A stretch of 24,568 nucleotides of DNA from a virus, in IMG/VR virus record IMGVR_UViG_3300023184_000498, positions 1 to 24,568 of that record. One strand, 5' to 3'. The notes below the pieces were generated by a model that saw only the letters and a list, made by a program, of their open reading frames with translations, was not told the origin of the DNA and did not search any database. This document shows positions 6,890-17,667 of the stretch, piece after piece; the stretch's first letter is position 1, and every line of letters starts with the position of its first letter. A program made the translations under genes and the position numbers.

Positions 6890-7465
6890 TTAAGCAAGAG
6901 TTGTCAATGAATCAATTAATTGTGCTGCAGGATTATTCGTAAATTCAAAAGTTTGATATTGGAATGTAACTGAGAATGTTGATAATTGATCGTTAGATCC
7001 AAAATCTAATCCAACTGCACCAAGGTCAACTGGGAATGCTCCCAATAATTTATATTGTTTCAACACCGCACCGTTGCGGTCTAATTGAGAAACAAACATA
7101 TCTGTTTGATATTGAGCTGGTTGTAAAGCACCTGTCTTATTAGCCATGTTCTCTATACCATTCATCCATTGTTCGATAGCGGATCTAATAGTAAATCCAG
7201 AATCGTTTAGGACTGTTATTTGGAATGGAGCAAATTCTCTGTCACCTGCCATTTTAATTAATCTACCGCGGTAGTATACTGGGGTAACCCCTAAGGATTG
7301 CCCTGGCAATTCTGCAACAGTAACTAAAAATGGAGATTTTGTTACAGCTGCTGCTCTAGATGAGACATAGTTTGGGAATGTCAATTGAACAGCAAACTGA
7401 TTGGGACGTGCCCCACCATTGGTAAGTTCGGATTTAAATCTTTCTACATTAAATGGTATTGCCAT
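6890..7465 (-). CDS. 19: Tail tube protein gp19
   Basis: A 191-residue protein (T4 gp19 has 163) forming the inner tube of the contractile tail. It has 'ARPNQFAVQLTFPNYV' at the N-terminus, 'VTVAELPGQSLGVTPVYYRG' (about 49-68), 'FQITVLNDSGFTIRSAIEQWMNGI' (about 81-104) and the C-terminal 'GAFPVDLGAVGLDFGSNDQ', all typical of the family. It follows gp18 by 15 bases with a clear AGGAG RBS and precedes gp20, the T4 order. The gene at 298-885 appears to be a distant paralogue. Confidence 0.95.
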   Translation of the reverse strand: MAIPFNVERFKSELTNGGARPNQFAVQLTFPNYVSSRAAAVTKSPFLVTVAELPGQSLGVTPVYYRGRLIKMAGDREFAPFQITVLNDSGFTIRSAIEQWMNGIENMANKTGALQPAQYQTDMFVSQLDRNGAVLKQYKLLGAFPVDLGAVGLDFGSNDQLSTFSVTFQYQTFEFTNNPAAQLIDSLTTLA

Positions 7466-7480
7466 TTTTCTATACTCCTA

Positions 7481-10126
7481 TTAAGCGCCGACTTCTTCGA
7501 AGGAAACGCCTGTTCTTGTAGCTACAAAATTCAACTGGATAAAGTTGATTGCTCTTGCAGGTTTGATGTAAATGTCTGCAACGAATTCATTGCGATCTAC
7601 GATATCTGCAGTGTTGTTTGTTTCATCACACACTACTCTAAAGTCTGTAATGCCTCGACGACCTTGAACATCTCTTAAGAATGGTTCTACAAGATTCTTA
7701 AATTGAGCTCTTGTAAATGGATCGTTGAATTCAAACAACTGGAATTTTGATGCTGTTGAAATAGATTTTTCCAACACTATAAACAATCTACGTACATTTA
7801 TACGATCAAATGCACTTGGTCTTGACAATAGTGTTTTATCTCCAAACAACAATGTTCCTTGTCCTGGGAATGTAACTACAGGATTAATACCTGCTTTGTA
7901 TAAATTGTCTCTATCTGTCTTAGATGGAGAATATGCCAATTTAACAACATTTTTAATTACGCCTCTGTTATATCCTGCAGGTGAGAACCAAGGATCAGCG
8001 ATATAATCTGTTCTCGCTGCAAGACCAGCAATGTCGCCATTCAATGGAACATAGCGATACTTGTCATTGTAGCGATCATATTGATATTTCCAACCAGAGT
8101 CTAGAACAGCAAAAGATGAACTTGTTAATTGATTTCTGTAATTAACAACATTTGTTGCAGCGTTTGTAGTATTAACAACATCTGTATATTGAGGAGAAGC
8201 AAATACTATGCAATCTCTTCTAGATTCTGCGATACCAATAACAGTATTAACGACACCGATATTTGTAGTTGGTCCCATTGGGATTAAACTTACATCATAC
8301 AATTCGTCATTGCTAAACAATTCATATCCTGCCTGTACGTTTGCAGCAGAAACTGACGCGCCGTCTACACCGCCAGACAATGTCGTAGTAACATTTGCAG
8401 TCAACTCTACGAATGCTGTTGTGCTTTGTCCGCCCCAATTTGTTCCTTGAGCAGGATGGTCAATCCATTTAATATATTTAGATTGATTGTTAATTACATT
8501 TTTGTAGTAATTTGTAGAATTGTCAGAATTCTTAGAATCCGATGCTTTAGATACAAATGAGAATTTTTCTAAGATTGAGTTTCTAGTTCCAGAAATCTTA
8601 CCATCGTTGTCAACAACAATTACGTGTAATTCATCTGAACTGCCGCCTCTTCCAGAAACATACGAAGATGTGTTTGGCGCTGCGTCAAACTGAGAAGCAT
8701 ATTGCCATCCTGAGAATGAATCATTATCTGCAAAGGATACCTTAATAGAATTTCCTAATGTACCAGGATATTTTGCAGCAAATGAACCATATCCAAATCC
8801 ACCAGACGCAAATTCGTTGTTATATACGTCTTCATTTTCAATCAACAACGCTGCTCTGTTAATAATAACATTACCCTGTGCAACAATATTAGAAGAATCT
8901 ATAATTGTTACTGTAGGAGCAGAAGAATATTGACTTCCACCATTTATAATATTAATACGATTTATAGTATATCCAACAGAAGCAATTGCTAACGCATTAC
9001 TTACATATGGACGATCTTGTGTAGCTGGGGTAATAATTACGTTAGGAGTACTTGTCCATCCTGAACCTGCACTATCTAATGTAATTTGAGAAATTAATGC
9101 TTCAATACGAACAGTTGCTGTAGCAAGAGTTCCACCAAGAGTGCTATTCTTATTAATAGTAATATTTGGAGTGTAACCATAACTACCTTGAGCACCATTT
9201 ACTACGGTAATTGTATCTACAAGTCCGTAACCAACATTTGCAACAACGCTAGGTGCAACATTTACATTTGGTCCACTAATTGTTACGTTAGGTGCGCCAA
9301 TATATCCATTACCCATAGATGTTATAGCAAATCCTACAACAGATGTATTTGATCTAATAATTGTAGCTGTTGCGTGATTTCCGCCAGCTACAAGGTTTCC
9401 AGAAAATACAACATTTGCATTACCAGAAACATTACCTGCACTATTAATTTGCAATCCAGTTAATTTGTAATGAATGTTTAATCTAGCAGATGCTCCTGTA
9501 GATTGTTGATTTTGTATTACAATATTAGATGCGCTGCTATAGTTGTTACCCGAATCTTGTACAACTATATCTACAATTTCGCCTGCGCCTAAAACAGCAG
9601 TTGCTGCAGCGCCAGAACCGCCACCACCACTAAATGAAATTGTCGGTGGTGTAGCATAACCGTATCCTCTTAATACCATATTAATACCTGACAAAGTGCC
9701 AGTAGAGGATAATATTGCATTACCTGTTGCTCTAGTACCACCAGAATCTGGTGTAGAGAATGTAACTGTTATATCGTTTTGATTAATAAAGCTTGCGGGA
9801 TTAGTTGATAATGTTACTCCTGTAACGGTACCGGATGGAGCAGAAACCGCATTTCTAGCTATGGCTTTATCTACTACGCGAACTAATTTTAAATTGTTTC
9901 CATATGACAAAAAGTTTGCTGCAGTAAAGAAATATCCTGCAGTTGTGTCGTCGGGGTTTCCAAATTTTTCTACAAGACTTCTCTCTGTATCCACAGTCGT
10001 AACTTCTTCGACCGGTCCCCATTGAAAGGCTCCCGAAAATGCCCCTGCGGTAGTTGCTACCGAAGGCACACCCGCGGTGTTGTCAATTTCGGTAACTTGT
10101 ACGCCTGGTGAAAGCTGAAATGCCAT
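7481..10126 (-). CDS. 18: Tail sheath protein gp18 with inserted beta-repeat domain
   Basis: An 881-residue contractile sheath subunit, much longer than T4 gp18 (659). The N-terminus 'FQLSPGVQVTEID' and the C-terminal 100 residues ('FEFNDPFTRAQFKNLVEPFL', 'DVQGRRGITDF', 'ADIYIKPARAINFIQLNFV') are conserved sheath core. Between 'LVRVVDKAIARNAV' (ending about 94) and 'ALLIENEDVYNNEF' (from about 426) lies a 330-residue insert with seven copies of a roughly 40-residue unit built around G-x-G-Y-x-x-x-P-x-V-x-I. The insert falls about where the protruding outer domain of T4 gp18 begins, so it probably decorates the tail surface. It has its own late promoter (10178-10185) and RBS (AAGGAG). Confidence 0.96.
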   Translation of the reverse strand: MAFQLSPGVQVTEIDNTAGVPSVATTAGAFSGAFQWGPVEEVTTVDTERSLVEKFGNPDDTTAGYFFTAANFLSYGNNLKLVRVVDKAIARNAVSAPSGTVTGVTLSTNPASFINQNDITVTFSTPDSGGTRATGNAILSSTGTLSGINMVLRGYGYATPPTISFSGGGGSGAAATAVLGAGEIVDIVVQDSGNNYSSASNIVIQNQQSTGASARLNIHYKLTGLQINSAGNVSGNANVVFSGNLVAGGNHATATIIRSNTSVVGFAITSMGNGYIGAPNVTISGPNVNVAPSVVANVGYGLVDTITVVNGAQGSYGYTPNITINKNSTLGGTLATATVRIEALISQITLDSAGSGWTSTPNVIITPATQDRPYVSNALAIASVGYTINRINIINGGSQYSSAPTVTIIDSSNIVAQGNVIINRAALLIENEDVYNNEFASGGFGYGSFAAKYPGTLGNSIKVSFADNDSFSGWQYASQFDAAPNTSSYVSGRGGSSDELHVIVVDNDGKISGTRNSILEKFSFVSKASDSKNSDNSTNYYKNVINNQSKYIKWIDHPAQGTNWGGQSTTAFVELTANVTTTLSGGVDGASVSAANVQAGYELFSNDELYDVSLIPMGPTTNIGVVNTVIGIAESRRDCIVFASPQYTDVVNTTNAATNVVNYRNQLTSSSFAVLDSGWKYQYDRYNDKYRYVPLNGDIAGLAARTDYIADPWFSPAGYNRGVIKNVVKLAYSPSKTDRDNLYKAGINPVVTFPGQGTLLFGDKTLLSRPSAFDRINVRRLFIVLEKSISTASKFQLFEFNDPFTRAQFKNLVEPFLRDVQGRRGITDFRVVCDETNNTADIVDRNEFVADIYIKPARAINFIQLNFVATRTGVSFEEVGA
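8897..9667 (-). repeat. Seven tandem ~40-residue beta repeats within gp18
   Basis: Core motifs lie at gp18 residues about 154-167, 193-206, 231-243, 272-285, 314-325, 354-367 and 397-410, spaced 38-43 residues. Examples are GNGYIGAPNVTISG and GSGWTSTPNVIITP. The units are diverged at protein level, so this is an old repeat array rather than recent DNA duplication. The same motif type is widespread in surface proteins of bacteria and phages. Confidence 0.85.
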
Positions 10127-10196: not shown

Positions 10197-11870
10197 TTAG
10201 ACATTTTCGAGCCATTTTCTTTGTAACTCTTGAATTTCATTCGGAGATTTTGAATTGGCGGCAAACCAAATTCCATCTGACATAACCTCTGGTTGGAATT
10301 GTTCTGGTATTCCAGTATCAACAATACCAAACGGTGTAAGATTTTCTTCAATTTGTTTCATTTGATCTTCATATAGAGCTTTTCTGAGATTACTGTCAGT
10401 TAAGTCCTTGAAGAATGATTCGTTAGTAGCCCACGAAAATAGGACTAAGCACATAACCAAATCGTCCTGGTATCCCTCGTCTGCCTTATGAGTTCCTCGG
10501 ACCTCAATAAATGTCGATATTTCATTAATAATATCTGGGTCGTGAATTAGTAGTTTCGTACCTTCAACCAAACTCTTGAATGATGTGCAACCCAATCGTT
10601 TTACTTGTTTTGTCGTTCTAACGCCAAGTGTGGCGCCATTACTAAATCCTCCAGAAAGATACTGTCCAGATTTACTATTACTTCCAACAAAGAATACGTT
10701 TTCATATTCTAAATCCATATACAAAGTATCTGCTACTTGCTGACCGTTGTCATTTATCTCTATTAGACAATATGCTTTGTGATAATCTTTTGCAACTTTA
10801 TAAATTATGTTTGGAAATAACAACGGACTTATCTTGTTACTTCTATACTTTGCAACTACGGAATATGGATATGATGTGATATCTAAAACCGTAAACGCTG
10901 AGTAATCTCCACCGACGCCTCTCGAGGTATCAGCAACTAACATATAAACATGATCTTCTTCAGGTTCGACAAATACGTCCAAACCGTCTTTACTATATAC
11001 ATAGGGTTTAACCGACATTTTACTAATAGTATCAGGATTGATAAGTGTATTAGAAGATCCTAAGAAGTTACATAAAACCTCTTGATTGAACTTAAGTTCG
11101 CCGAGCATTGCCCTTTGTTCTTCAGCCCACTTATCATCTCTACCCGGTATTCTGTTATAAGGAATAAACATAGGAACAAATCCGTTTAATCCCTGTTCCG
11201 CTTCATTCCAGAATTTCCAGAAATGATTATATCCTAGTGGAGTAGATGTCAGCAGAATCTTTGTTGTCTGACCCGCAGAAATTGTTGGGTAAACAGATGT
11301 AAAGAAATCCTCTGCAACATTGTTTGGAATAATTGCTGCTTCGTCAATGTATAACCAATTTACAGATTTACCTCGAATACCTGAAGAACTTGTCGCTGCT
11401 GTAAATACTTTGGATCCATTTTCTAATTCAATGTCACCTTTGTTAAATGTCTTAACACCTTGTTGCATCCATATAGGAAGCATTTCATACATCAGTTCAT
11501 AACGAGATAAAACCTCGCGAGCCGCTGAAGATTTGTTCGCCAGAATAGCAACTGTTTTATTTTCCTGAAATAACGTATACCATAGAATACATGCTGCAGA
11601 TGTAATAGTCTTGCCCTGTTGGCGACCTTCCATTAGAATCACTTTACGATTATTTAGAATAGTATGTACTTTTTCTTTTTGGCAATCATATAATTTGAAC
11701 GGCACTAAACCTTTATCCAAAGAAACAATTTGGCAATAATTTTCAATGAAGTAAATTGGATTCTGTGTACACTTTATAATTTCTTTAACTTGTTCTGTGG
11801 TGTACGATATGACAGTCCCAATCTGTTTTAGATTGGGATTGCCGTTATATGATGTTGGTTTATTGCTCAA
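10197..11870 (-). CDS. 17: Terminase large subunit gp17
   Basis: The 557-residue packaging motor ATPase and headful nuclease (T4 gp17 has 610). ATPase: Walker A 'GRQQGKT' (82-88), Walker B 'LYIDEA' with D176/E177, coupling motif 'LLTSTP' (206-211). Nuclease (RNase H fold): D314 in 'VADTSRG', E371 in 'LIEIND', D470 in 'YQDDLVM'. It translocates DNA through gp20 and cuts it. The only workable start is a TTG at 11870, right after an in-frame TAA; the next in-frame ATG is at the Walker A. The start lies inside the end of gp16 (11-base overlap), so translation is probably coupled. The N-terminal 'YNGNPNLK' agrees with marine phage homologues, supporting the TTG. Confidence 0.97.
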   Translation of the reverse strand: MSNKPTSYNGNPNLKQIGTVISYTTEQVKEIIKCTQNPIYFIENYCQIVSLDKGLVPFKLYDCQKEKVHTILNNRKVILMEGRQQGKTITSAACILWYTLFQENKTVAILANKSSAAREVLSRYELMYEMLPIWMQQGVKTFNKGDIELENGSKVFTAATSSSGIRGKSVNWLYIDEAAIIPNNVAEDFFTSVYPTISAGQTTKILLTSTPLGYNHFWKFWNEAEQGLNGFVPMFIPYNRIPGRDDKWAEEQRAMLGELKFNQEVLCNFLGSSNTLINPDTISKMSVKPYVYSKDGLDVFVEPEEDHVYMLVADTSRGVGGDYSAFTVLDITSYPYSVVAKYRSNKISPLLFPNIIYKVAKDYHKAYCLIEINDNGQQVADTLYMDLEYENVFFVGSNSKSGQYLSGGFSNGATLGVRTTKQVKRLGCTSFKSLVEGTKLLIHDPDIINEISTFIEVRGTHKADEGYQDDLVMCLVLFSWATNESFFKDLTDSNLRKALYEDQMKQIEENLTPFGIVDTGIPEQFQPEVMSDGIWFAANSKSPNEIQELQRKWLENV

Positions 11871-12289: not shown

Positions 12290-13039
12290 TTAAAAGTCTT
12301 CAAAGTTTTCTAAATAACCAAACGTGTCCGTGGTATTTGCCAACAGAGGATTTGTTTGAATTGTAGCAATTTGTCGTTGCTGTGTCAGAGAAGGATCATT
12401 AAATGTAGTTGCGGTAACTTTTCTAATAATACTGCCCTTAGTAACAGGGCCATAAAAATTAAGTTTAATAGTAAAACTCAATGTCCACATTATGGATCTT
12501 CTAGTTGTTAGATCGCCTTCATAGTCATCCTCAAATCCTATTGTACTTAAAATAATAGGCATATCATTTCTTATATTTAACTCGGGTACTGCCTTGATAG
12601 TTAAATTATAATCTGGATTAAAGTATGGAAGTATTTGTTCTATAATTTGCAAACCGTCATCTTGATTCTTTGCATAGATGAAAAGTAAGATGCTTATATT
12701 ATACGGAGTAGGGGCATATTGAGAATTAGCAGATGTACCACTATTAATTGTTCTAGATTGTTGTATAGGTGCAATTTTTCTATTAGGATCATAGTCCAAA
12801 GAAATCATCTCAAATCCCATACGAGGAAGAACAATCTGTACGTTTTGTGTATCAACGTTTGGTTGTTGTCGTATTTTAGTTAAGAATTTTTGTTTAGGAG
12901 AGTATGCTAACGGCACCTTTTGTATTTGTACTACATTGCCGTCAGCGTCTTTACGTTCAATAGTTATATTATTGAACATACTTCCAAAAGCAACAATTGC
13001 TTTTCTAATAGTGCCCCAGTAAAATCTTTGGTCTAACAT
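12290..13039 (-). CDS. 15: Tail completion and sheath stabiliser gp15
   Basis: A 249-residue protein (T4 gp15 has 272) that forms the hexameric tail terminator holding the top of sheath and tube and joining the tail to the neck. The N-terminal 'DQRFYWGTIRKAIVAFGSMFNNI' and 'VPLAYSPKQKFLTKI' and the middle 'VLPRMGFEMISLDYDPNRKI' are strong family markers, as is 'YNISILLFIYAKNQDDGLQI'. Its ATG shares one base with the gp14 stop (TAATG), indicating coupled translation. It belongs to the gp13-gp14-gp15 neck and tail-top set, in T4 order. Confidence 0.94.
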   Translation of the reverse strand: MLDQRFYWGTIRKAIVAFGSMFNNITIERKDADGNVVQIQKVPLAYSPKQKFLTKIRQQPNVDTQNVQIVLPRMGFEMISLDYDPNRKIAPIQQSRTINSGTSANSQYAPTPYNISILLFIYAKNQDDGLQIIEQILPYFNPDYNLTIKAVPELNIRNDMPIILSTIGFEDDYEGDLTTRRSIMWTLSFTIKLNFYGPVTKGSIIRKVTATTFNDPSLTQQRQIATIQTNPLLANTTDTFGYLENFEDF

Positions 13040-13788
13040 TATCTACCTACATCTCCGAAAGGATTTCTTTCAGAAAAATCCAATATGTTATCTGCTTCTG
13101 CAGCAAAGGTATCATTATCCGCATTGCCGGGATTATTATCTATGATATAGTCTTCGTTTACTATAGGAGTAAGTGCATTTGCCTCTGACACTAATGTGCC
13201 TCCGTTTTCCAAAACCATTTCAAATTTATCCGCGGATTGCGTGAATTGTCCAAACAAACTATCTATTTCATCTACACCCGTATTAAAGACTTCACTAGAA
13301 TATTGTAGTAATTCGCAACTCATTCTATATACAAACAATTTGCCTACTTGAAAAAACGGAGTTTGACTATCGACTTTGCGTATTTCGAATAAGGATTGAG
13401 TTAAAGGCATATAAATTATATCACCTTCAGCTGGTCTTGTTGATAGAACTGAGGTATTAGTACTACCCACAGTCTCTAACCATCTTCTTCTTGCGACAAT
13501 AAAGGTTGCCGAATCTCGAATATCCAAACCAAACTTTGTAATTAATTCGTCCTCGCCAGCATAGCCTGTTACGTTTTCCATATACATTTCGATTGGAAAC
13601 GCATTCTCATAACTGTTATATGGATCTTCGCCCAAAATCTTATCGGGATTGCTGATCTTACGTGGAAGGTAATAGGCTTCGAACCCATAAATTCTCATAG
13701 ACTCAATAATCAAATCCTCATAGAGCGTCTGCTCGTTAGAATTCCCTATTGTTCTACCTGACTGGAAATAATGATTAACTGTTGCCAT
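13039..13788 (-). CDS. 14: Neck protein gp14
   Basis: A 249-residue protein (T4 gp14 has 256) that with gp13 closes the filled head and forms the collar to which the tail binds. Markers are 'EQTLYEDLIIESMRIYGFEAYYLPR' (about 19-43), 'PIEMYMENVTGYAGEDELITKFGL' (about 65-88), 'FIVARRRW' and 'LFEIRKV'. The C-terminal 60 residues are acidic and Asn-rich. The start has an AGGAAT RBS. A 68-base gap separates it from gp13 and holds a 9-base direct repeat (CTATTGACT on the plus strand, twice, 13795-13814 region) but no recognisable late promoter. Confidence 0.94.
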   Translation of the reverse strand: MATVNHYFQSGRTIGNSNEQTLYEDLIIESMRIYGFEAYYLPRKISNPDKILGEDPYNSYENAFPIEMYMENVTGYAGEDELITKFGLDIRDSATFIVARRRWLETVGSTNTSVLSTRPAEGDIIYMPLTQSLFEIRKVDSQTPFFQVGKLFVYRMSCELLQYSSEVFNTGVDEIDSLFGQFTQSADKFEMVLENGGTLVSEANALTPIVNEDYIIDNNPGNADNDTFAAEADNILDFSERNPFGDVGR

Positions 13789-14614: not shown

Positions 14615-15421
14615 TTATTTTAGTATTATTGCAAATTTAGTCCACACATTTGCTTGTGCATTGGTCTGAGCTTGATTATAGATACCTGTTCCTGTATACA
14701 ACCAAGTTGCCTCAGGTGGGTTCCTGTATACATCGGTTGCAGCATGTTGCCAAAACAATCCATTTGGATCGGATAGATCTTGATTATCAAACACAAATGG
14801 TTTTGTCGCAGTATTACTAGTAGCTCTTGCCCAATAGTCTATAGTAATTGGCCAGGTACACCAAATATTACTAGTTGTTGTATTTACTAAACCATCGTGA
14901 AGCGGTCCTATATCATAATCAGTATTAATATTTTTAACTTTTAAAACAGGATTTCCACCAAATAATGTGGAATATGTTGATACAGAAAAAACATTTGCAG
15001 GTGTAAGGGATACATATGTATTACTCATAATATCTCCCCATACCAAAGTTCCATTTACGTTTGCTATTCTAAATAATGCAACGGTGTTTCCAGTTTCTAT
15101 ATTTAATTGAATTTCCGAGCTAGTGGTTTCTCCAAATTCTGGTCTAATTCCCTTGGTTATTCGTATATCTCCTATTTCACCTTCCCATCCTCTTTTAGAA
15201 TTAACTGAACCTAAATTTATCAATGGGTCTATCTTATTTGTTCCAACTCTAATTCTTGTTAATCCCTTTGGTTGATATGCTGCAGGCAAAGAGGAACCGA
15301 TCCTTAATTGACTTTCGAAGTATCCATATACTTCAGATGCCGGGCTGTTAATAAACAACTGTATTACACGTTTACCTTGTTGTGCAACGACAGACATAAA
15401 GGCATTAAATATTCCAGCCAT
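14615..15421 (-). CDS. Unrecognised virion protein upstream of gp13
   Basis: A 268-residue protein of unknown family at the place where T4 encodes fibritin (wac). The N-terminal 100 residues include 'RIRVGTNKIDPLINLGS' and 'WEGEIGDIRITKGIRPEFG'; the phrase 'IGDIRITKGI' resembles the end of LamG/concanavalin-like domains often found in phage adhesins, but the usual preceding strands are not clear. The rest is beta-rich with many Thr, Asn and Trp and no coiled coil, so it is not a fibritin. Its ATG overlaps the stop of the collagen-like gene by one base (TAATG), which suggests coupled production and a joint role, perhaps as a tip or attachment partner of that fibre. Function is inference. Confidence 0.75.
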   Translation of the reverse strand: MAGIFNAFMSVVAQQGKRVIQLFINSPASEVYGYFESQLRIGSSLPAAYQPKGLTRIRVGTNKIDPLINLGSVNSKRGWEGEIGDIRITKGIRPEFGETTSSEIQLNIETGNTVALFRIANVNGTLVWGDIMSNTYVSLTPANVFSVSTYSTLFGGNPVLKVKNINTDYDIGPLHDGLVNTTTSNIWCTWPITIDYWARATSNTATKPFVFDNQDLSDPNGLFWQHAATDVYRNPPEATWLYTGTGIYNQAQTNAQANVWTKFAIILK

Positions 15422-17667
15422 TAACTTACTCCAACACCACTAATCCACCATGCATTGGTATCAACCTTTAGTAGTGAAGCAAATCCCCACGATGAAATAT
15501 TTGCATTAGATCTTGGATTGGCGGAAGTTCCTGCTAAATATAAAGTTACACCAGGATGTCTTACCTGAATATTTGCTGAGCCCTGAACCACAATACTTAT
15601 TGCTGTTCCTATAGCAAATGGCACATTTGCTTGTGGAGGTATTGTTATTACTTGAGTAAATGCTGCATTTGCATCCCAACTATGAATGAATTTTCCTGAA
15701 TCTGATAAACGTAATGTATAGTTTCCATTTTGTACGTTTTGTGGGATACCCATAAACCCAGCAGACTTTGAACCTAAACTTCCAGTTTCATTTACATTTG
15801 CTGTTAAATTTCCACTTGCTATTTCTACAGAAGTTGCGACAATTGCACACGCCCGCGTATTTCCAGTAACAAATATATTTCTAGTTTGAACTGTTCCTTC
15901 GAGCGATAAAAGGAGATTATTGACTGTCAGATTATATAATGATATATTTCCATCTGCCAAGGCAGATAATACTCTAGCATTAGTAAAATATAAATTAGCA
16001 GATGTTTCTCTAACATTTGCCGTTGTTAGTGTAGGAGAAACTACACCTAGTATACTCGATGCATTCCCTACAGAACCCGCAGGCCCCGTTGCTCCAGTAG
16101 CACCTGCTCCTGTTGCGCCTGTTGCGCCTAGTGATCCTGTGGCTCCTGTTAGTCCCGTAGCACCCGTTGCACCTACATTTCCAGATAATCCAGTATTTCC
16201 TGTTATCCCTGTAGCACCAACGACATTGCCAACAACTATAACATTTGAATTATTTAAAGTTAATCGTAATATTCCAGATATTATATTTGCGCTAGTTACA
16301 TATAATCCTGTAGCACCGACATTTCCTGTACCACCAATGGGGCCTGTTGCTCCTATACCGGTAGCACCAGTATTACCTGCGGGTCCTGTGGCGCCTTGAA
16401 TACCTGTAGCACCTGTTGCACCTATTCCTGTTGCTCCTGTGGCTCCTGCGGCTCCTGTTGCACCAACAACGTTTCCTATGACTATGGTATTGGAGTTATT
16501 TAAAAATAATCTTAATGTTCCATCGCTTATATTTGCGCTAGTTACATATAATCCTGTTGCACCAACATTGCCGTCTCTGCCAACATACCCATCTGCACCA
16601 GTGGCACCTGTTAATCCTGTGGCACCTATTAAACCTACAAATCCTCGAAGACCTGTTGCTCCAGTTTCGCCTGTTGCACCTGTTGCACCTGCTCCTGTTG
16701 CTCCTGTAGATCCTAAAGGTCCTGTTGCTCCTGTTGCTCCCGTTGAACCGGTAGACCCAAGAAATCCTGTTAATCCTATTGGACCTTGTGGGCCCGTAGC
16801 GCCTTGCAACCCTGTAGCACCAGTTGATCCATTGTCACCTTTAACTCCCGCAGCACCAGCAAATCCTCGCAATCCACTTGCTCCAGTTGCGCCAGCATCT
16901 CCGGTTAAACCTGTGGCTCCTTGTGAACCTGTAGCGCCTTGTGTTCCTGTGGCTCCTGTTGCACCAAAACCTGTAGCACCAGTCAATCCGGTAGCGCCTC
17001 GAATGCCTGTAGCGCCTTGTGTTCCTGTGGCTCCTGTTGCACCAAAACCTGTAGCGCCAGTTAAACCTGTTGCACCAATATCGCCTGTTTCGCCAGTAAA
17101 TCCTATAGGTCCTGCAACTCCTCGAAGACCTGTTGCACCTGTTAACCCAGCAACACCTTGTGATCCTGTGGCACCAACATTACCTGTAGCACCGACGTTA
17201 CCCGTTAAACCTGTTGATCCTTGTGACCCTGTAGCACCTCGAAGACCTGTAGCACCAGTTAATCCAACTCCTGTTGCACCCACATATAAAAATATTGGAT
17301 TAAATGCTGCAGGTGTTTCTGGTTGTATACTTATTGATCCTGGGACTGCACCTGGATTTACTGTTACAATACCGTCCGATACTCTATCTACATTTGAACC
17401 ATTAATGGAATTTATGTAATAGACATATCTTCCCATATCAATATTTGCAGTTACCCCAGAAGTCAATCCATATTGAATTACGCTATTACCTATATCAGTA
17501 ATAGTTGACGTAAATGCAACAATGACATTGCCTGTTGTAGATCTTTGGATTTGTCCGTAAATTACTGAACCAACAAGGGATATTGGATTTGTATTAGCAT
17601 CCAAATGCCGTATGGTATCAGTAAACGTTAATCCCTGGGTTAACGAAATATTTTTGGTTAATGACAT
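15421..17667 (-). CDS. Collagen-like tail fibre protein
   Basis: A 748-residue fibre. Residues 1-128 form a beta-rich N-terminal domain ('[19 protein letters not shown]', 'VIYGQIQRS') likely to attach to the tail. Collagen-like Gly-X-Y blocks, dominated by Gly-Ala-Thr, cover about 129-372, 401-453 and 485-534, separated by two copies of a 30-residue beta module (about 373-402 and 455-484). Six G-X-G interruptions break triplet phase at residues near 208, 234, 326, 415, 438 and 521. The C-terminus has '[18 protein letters not shown]' (about 553-570), a common phage fibre module, and a terminal beta domain ending '[17 protein letters not shown]'. Such proteins trimerise. Role in host binding is inferred. 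Confidence 0.9.
16281..16557 (-). repeat. 31-base perfect direct repeat flanking one collagen block
   Basis: Identical 31-base copies at 16281-16311 and 16527-16557, 246 bases apart. They encode the same stretch (GLYVTSANI) of the two non-collagen modules in the fibre. Recombination between them would remove or add one collagen block plus one module, keeping the reading frame (246 is a multiple of three). Confidence 0.85.
16928..17055 (-). repeat. 50-base perfect direct repeat in the collagen-like region
   Basis: Identical 50-base copies at 16928-16977 and 17006-17055, offset by 78 bases (26 codons). Each carries the collagen interruption G-F-G, so the 26-residue step also restores triplet phase around it. 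Identity at DNA level points to recent duplication. Confidence 0.85.

Follow-up and report, generated by a model that had tools for sequence, protein, structure and literature searches.

The minus strand of the window – the whole 24.6-kb virus record analysed here – carries head and tail genes of the T4 type, encoding the major head protein, scaffold, protease, portal gp20, tube gp19, sheath gp18, terminase, gp15, gp14 and gp13. The order gp13-gp14-gp15-terminase-gp18-gp19-gp20 is that of a T4-type sheath neighbourhood. The sheath protein gp18 is 881 residues long and matches Pfam sheath models above the curated cut-offs at residues 31-84 (Gp18_domIII_N), 629-766 (Phage_sheath_1) and 770-869 (Phage_sheath_1C); residues ~97-424 are outside all of these matches. 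While the PHROG tail-sheath profile aligns in one piece over residues 1-879, it uses just 453 profile positions, implying that the protein holds some 330-400 surplus residues. Close upstream of the neck genes lies a 748-aa tail-fibre-like protein (15421-17667, minus strand), which matches several collagen-like and tail-fibre PHROGs. The sheath, its parts and its context are as follows:

7481-10126, minus strand: tail sheath protein gp18, 881 aa (PF22671, PF04984 and PF17482 above cut-off; phrog_23 tail sheath, E 1.5e-133)
9851-10126, minus strand: N-terminal sheath core, residues 1-92 (T4 domains IV/III), kept in all relatives
8855-9838, minus strand: eight-unit beta-repeat array, residues 97-424, at the site of T4 gp18 domain I (unit HMM, missing in bare relatives, AlphaFold2)
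7484-8845, minus strand: C-terminal sheath core, residues 428-881 (the rest of domain II, domains III and IV), kept in all relatives, 73-82% identity within the eight-unit clade
6890-7465, minus strand: tail tube gp19, context (PF06841, phrog_45)
10197-11870, minus strand: terminase large subunit gp17, context (PF03237/PF17289)
13039-13788, minus strand: neck / head-closure protein gp14, without the repeat in the window (phrog_460/679)

The tandem beta-repeat insert in this sheath is genuine and well delimited. A unit HMM of 45 positions, built from the units of relatives alone with those of the window excluded, scores the window sheath at 95.5 bits (E 1e-29); when run against 200 insert-shuffled copies, it reported a single one, at 3.5 bits. 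These scores, and the extent of the insert, agree with the first-pass annotation, which had described an 881-residue sheath with a tandem beta-repeat insert at residues 96-424, set between conserved sheath segments; the flanks are indeed common to the relatives. With the window sequence by itself, an offset scan gives a less clear answer (best score 61; shuffles, mean 41 and maximum 68), and the repeat is therefore evident mainly through its relatives. Phase and unit alignment yield eight units of 40-43 residues (~41) rather than the seven initially counted, with starts at ~97, 137, 177, 217, 257, 298, 340 and 383. Each unit is laid out as a beta strand, a G-x-[GN]-[YW]-x-x-x-P-x-V-x-I loop and strand, and then a long Ala/Thr/Val-rich strand. 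The G-x-G-Y core that had been ascribed to the units is recognisable, in the form G-x-[GN]-[YW], in about five of the eight; unit 4 lacks it, and unit 1 is barely detectable. The individual units are:

9719-9838, minus strand: unit 1, residues 97-136, degenerate, without GxGY (phase and unit alignment; unit-HMM match at 97-108, 1.7 bits)
9599-9718, minus strand: unit 2, residues 137-176, GYGYATPPTISF (unit HMM and alignment)
9479-9598, minus strand: unit 3, residues 177-216, GNNYSSASNIVI (unit HMM and alignment)
9359-9478, minus strand: unit 4, residues 217-256, degenerate, no clear G-x-G-Y (phase and orthology to unit 4 of the relative L010)
9236-9358, minus strand: unit 5, residues 257-297, GNGYIGAPNVTI (unit HMM and alignment)
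9110-9235, minus strand: unit 6, residues 298-339, GSYGYTPNITI (unit HMM and alignment)
8981-9109, minus strand: unit 7, residues 340-382, GSGWTSTPNVII (unit HMM and alignment)
8855-8980, minus strand: unit 8, residues 383-424, GSQYSSAPTVTI (unit HMM and alignment)

Trivial origins of the insert can be set aside. We reject a frameshift or assembly artefact, given that the insert recurs at the same length and in an open frame on no fewer than nine further contigs, including one with 99% identity. Recent tandem duplication or slippage is ruled out by the low scores of the window units against each other (-9 to 33), and is also countered by the units usually being nearest to the same-numbered unit of relatives (8 of 8 for L010, 6 of 8 for L007).

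Searches with the repeat in Pfam and among PDB sequences returned no family and no credible solved relative. Ig-like Pfam models (Big, I-set, Hoc-type) gave no match with the sheath up to E 1 or with clean inserts of relatives up to E 10, Pfam found no carbohydrate-binding module (CBM) family in the window sheath, and the repeat itself had no match among adhesin families, carbohydrate-binding families or solved adhesins. BLAST with the insert alone returned only four records, all Prochlorococcus phage baseplate, and BLAST with the insert of the cleanest relative returned none. Since low-complexity filtering probably hides the repeat from BLAST, its absence in isolates was checked by HMM on fetched isolate sheaths.

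The AlphaFold2 model of the full sheath, predicted from an alignment of 59 relatives, has a mean pLDDT of 81 and a pTM of 0.60. Residues 101-430 are modelled as nearly all strands, with block-mean pLDDT of 72-93, bearing out the beta character proposed earlier; given the low pTM, the model does not fix the placement of the array against the core. In a Foldseek search of solved structures, the best matches to the full model were T4-type sheaths (E 1e-32), matched end to end; this whole-protein comparison does not by itself prove the domain I fold. The viral library gave the sheath of phage S-WAM1 as top match, together with further large sheaths and with baseplate and virion proteins from cyanophages. 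When two units of the window were modelled in isolation, the pLDDT was 59, and this fragment was kept out of the fold search.

The first-pass annotation had proposed surveying gp18 homologues for presence, absence and copy number of the repeat. A first scan of viral contigs yielded 80 loci, and we then define the insertion point as site A, bounded by conserved anchors. The segment between the anchors is 18-26 aa when bare, ~101 aa with two units, 142 aa with three, 179-191 aa with four and 347-363 aa with eight; segments of ~272-278 or 239 aa hold four units plus another, nested domain. Relatives thus carry 0, 2, 3, 4 or 8 units at the same point, with the flanks conserved. We pooled 169 distinct sheaths from four viral-contig scans, one genome-contig scan and fetched isolates: site A is bare (a short linker) in 126, holds the repeat in 41, an unrelated module in one (S-WAM1) and domain I in one (T4), counts that describe a similarity-seeded sample and are not population frequencies. 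With 126 of 169 sheaths having no domain at all at site A, the module is dispensable for related sheaths. T4-type sheath genes also turned up on contigs (L087-L097) that binning had assigned to Alteromonadales, Flavobacteriales, Woesearchaeota, Poseidoniales and other groups; these are likely phage contigs misbinned into MAGs.

By HMM, none of the sheaths of isolated cyano-, pelagi-, methylo- and proteobacterial phages that we examined has the repeat at site A. Most of these carry a different insert at a second position, site B, corresponding to about residue 470 of the window sheath. Site B is occupied in 2 of the 43 sheaths with site A filled as compared to 79 of the 126 with site A bare (Fisher 3e-12, with rows that are related by descent and not independent samples). 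In one sheath (L183:2980-4908) it is site B, not A, that holds two units of the repeat. The sheath of S-WAM1 (L082, KU686210, 5989-8787; AOV61587, 932 aa) resembles that of the window in having a large insert at site A of a cyanophage sheath and differs in that this insert, two copies of TTLTVAxATxFxxGDLLxID...RGQLxTxAxxHAxG, is unrelated to the window repeat and is accompanied by an additional insert at site B. Site A therefore admits non-homologous inserts. A nested module of ~55 residues (W..x.Y..G..Y....AGT.G...P.H..G......W/LF.S) is present at site A in L027 and L046 and at site B in L107 (ACG-2014d); it resembles phage-fibre and CBM5/12-like domains, with a sub-threshold CBM_5_12 match in L046 (E 0.067).

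On a tree of the sheath cores the eight-unit sheaths form one clade (SH-aLRT 100), while the 'bare' and 'four units' states each require several changes. Within the eight-unit clade the number of units is fixed and their order is kept; as compared to the window protein, cores are 73-82% identical and inserts 34-51%. For eleven pairs, dN/dS is 0.20-0.54 in the inserts and 0.07-0.28 in the cores: both are under purifying selection, the insert usually the more relaxed of the two, with L013/L015 the lone pair in which the contrast is reversed. The dN/dS values of these pairs give no sign of diversifying selection on the insert, such as an arms-race adhesin might show. In the pair L003/L009, the cores are 97% identical and the synonymous divergence of the insert is three times that of the core, a pattern in the coding sequences that suggests module exchange by recombination.

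The repeat is not confined to sheaths. The insert itself is matched by PHROG profiles for baseplate wedge, head closure, tail fibre and a large virion protein. In relatives with four-unit sheaths, gp14 has two repeat units near its C-terminus (e.g. L029:2677-3606; carriers are L013-L015, L021, L027, L029, L034, L042, L046-L048, L051-L053 and L055), and in the four-unit genomes G007 and G008 the repeat is present in several genes. All this fits the earlier remark that the repeat family is common in phage surface proteins: the repeat is a module of several virion surface proteins. Several further copies are found in a 938-aa protein of G007 (the record of L029; C1:72792-74762). Among the records searched, the eight-unit clade has the array on the sheath only.

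In T4, gp18 domain I (residues 98-188) is inserted in domain II and projects from the tail. It takes no part in gp18-gp18 contacts; its partners are the baseplate, which it touches, and the long tail fibres, which it binds when they are retracted (PMC3004832). When the window sheath is aligned to T4 gp18, the array falls between DRDTAKNSSP and AEIEN of T4 (anchors ~97 and ~189), that is, on domain I. The two share the insertion point in domain II, a beta-rich character and, for the T4 domain, the length of two units with six strands. They differ in that domain I, read as two diverged units (YTISTPGSNYAVGDKITVKY ... GKITEVDADGKIKKINIPTGKNYAKA ... WTAEISSSSSGLAAVITLG), is degenerate and has a helix in place of the second motif loop, whereas the window has eight units, most with recognisable G-x-G-Y-like loops. 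With a two-unit profile HMM made from 87 natural pairs, T4 domain I reaches 16.1 bits, as compared to 11.3 bits for the best of 2786 scored background windows; the HMM aligns it almost without gaps across both motifs, in a register beginning at the insertion point. The nine Straboviridae domain I sequences divide into four that outscore all 2786 background windows and five that rank below 1 to 23 of these; the nine are related to each other and are not independent tests. Profile-profile comparison of the repeat with domain I gives 19.3, with 200 column shuffles reaching at most 14.5. The single-unit HMM does not separate T4 domain I from background, and neither do pairwise alignments of units with domain I (Z-scores mostly 0-3.4). 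The strand order of the array is comparable to that of T4 domain I in the full-length model; the isolated two-unit model has a pLDDT of 59. For the origin of T4 domain I, we found no account in the literature searched.

Could the repeat and T4 domain I be unrelated, with a mobile beta-repeat having entered a permissive loop in the way that the S-WAM1 module did? The S-WAM1 sheath shows that unrelated modules enter site A, most relatives between T4 and the window are bare there, and the single-unit model yields a weak similarity to T4. An independent origin nonetheless seems rather unlikely to us, as the two-unit profile places T4 domain I over all of the scored background and in register from the insertion point, and the strand order is comparable. 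We therefore consider homology of the repeat with T4 domain I likely on the strength of the sequence comparisons, short of proven. With T4 domain I probably a degenerate two-unit relative, the array looks like an expansion of the normal outer domain: probably an enlarged version of the known outer knob, not a foreign adhesin added to the sheath. The insert had been placed near the start of the T4 protruding domain; the T4 alignment puts it at the same position, and it is probably of the same family. The first-pass annotation had also noted that its reading would fail if the segment were the normal outer domain of all related phages. In part this applies: the array is probably an expanded domain I, but most of the surveyed relatives have no domain there. 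More tentatively, T4 gp18 domain I may be an eroded member, two units long, of a beta-repeat family that is widespread on virion surfaces, and T4-type sheaths may offer a choice of two ports for display – site A (domain I) and site B in domain II – which take 2 to 8 copies of the repeat or unrelated modules, giving tail arms of variable length while leaving the contraction machinery untouched.

As for function, we lean towards the array being an expanded form of the outward-facing domain I of T4-type sheaths that most likely serves as a weak, multivalent surface-contact module. A beta unit of ~41 residues, repeated eight times, would loop out of sheath domain II where T4 has domain I, so that on each sheath subunit a long beta arm would stand clear of the contractile core. 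Neither the core lattice nor contraction would be disturbed by the arm, because many relatives function with a bare linker of ~20 residues. Surface display of the array is a well-supported prediction, and by analogy with T4 the tail of this phage is probably covered with long projecting arms. The T4 tail has 138 gp18 subunits (PMC3004832); extrapolated from this number, a tail would bear hundreds of arm copies, the tape-measure gene lying outside the window. As generic virion-surface modules, the arms would make contacts, each weak but many in number, with cell surfaces or with particles ahead of fibre engagement, a role that we liken to that of the arrays of Ig-like domains in T4 Hoc. Ig-like virion decorations, Hoc among them, have been credited with weak surface contacts (PMC10385173; Fraser et al. 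2006 via PMC9230969). Like the array, Hoc is a string of repeated beta modules on the virion surface; unlike it, Hoc is a separate capsid decoration protein with Ig folds, while the array is of another repeat type and lies within the sheath subunit.

Weak multivalent adhesion appears the most plausible role, our first choice over fibre docking and sheath stabilisation. The array could mainly hold the retracted long tail fibres to the sheath and contact the baseplate, as domain I does in T4, with the longer array extending to a fibre of greater length or other placement. In favour of this, the three T4 mutations by which retraction is blocked (G106S, S175F and A178V; PMC3004832) fall, as we read the alignment, on G107 of the first motif loop and on S176/A179 of the second unit loop (precursor numbering); in motif terms these loops are G-x-N-Y in unit 1 and S-S-G-L-A-A in unit 2. 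On the other hand, the domain is missing from many related phages, and the same repeat is found on neck and other proteins. Furthermore, T4 has a fibritin whisker (PF07921) and none was found in the eight- and four-unit records G002, G004, G006 and G007, some of them fragments, which weakens the docking explanation, short of excluding it; overall we judge it improbable. Alternatively, contacts of the arms with adjacent arms or subunits could hold the extended sheath together, the arms having no ligand outside the tail. For phage 812 and other cases, a disc-stabilising role of additional sheath domains has been put forward (PMC9230969), and the fixed number and order of units in the clade, together with purifying selection on the array, would fit. 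A stabilising arm is equally hard to favour, given that T4 domain I makes no contacts between subunits, that copy number varies from 0 to 8 among similar cores and that the insert, unlike a lattice interface, shows much lower conservation than the core.

Extra outer domains on sheaths are not new, and neither is the idea that they adhere: multi-domain ('type 3') sheaths with Ig-like extra domains have been described, with adhesion or stabilisation suggested as their role (Evseev et al. 2022, PMC9230969). Display as such is thus already known, and the surprise that the first-pass annotation expressed at finding a presumed adhesive domain on a sheath calls for correction. Type 3 sheaths resemble that of the window in having extra beta domains away from the tube-contacting core; the difference is that the paper makes no mention of repeats, whereas in the window the extra part is a single tandem array whose ~41-residue unit has no match in Pfam, be it to Ig-like or to other families. 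Our literature searches, which covered mainly open-access papers, found no repeat arrays on sheaths. Within the literature searched, the eight-unit expansion, the 0-2-3-4-8 series at one site and the alternative use of two ports are new, as is the link, which we consider likely, between T4 domain I and a repeat common on virion surfaces.

Placing T4 domain I in a repeat family with natural copy numbers from 0 to 8 would provide a ready series for probing what outer sheath domains do. If the arms do adhere, tail length and arm length would jointly set the stickiness of the free virion, with a bearing on phage encounter rates in water.
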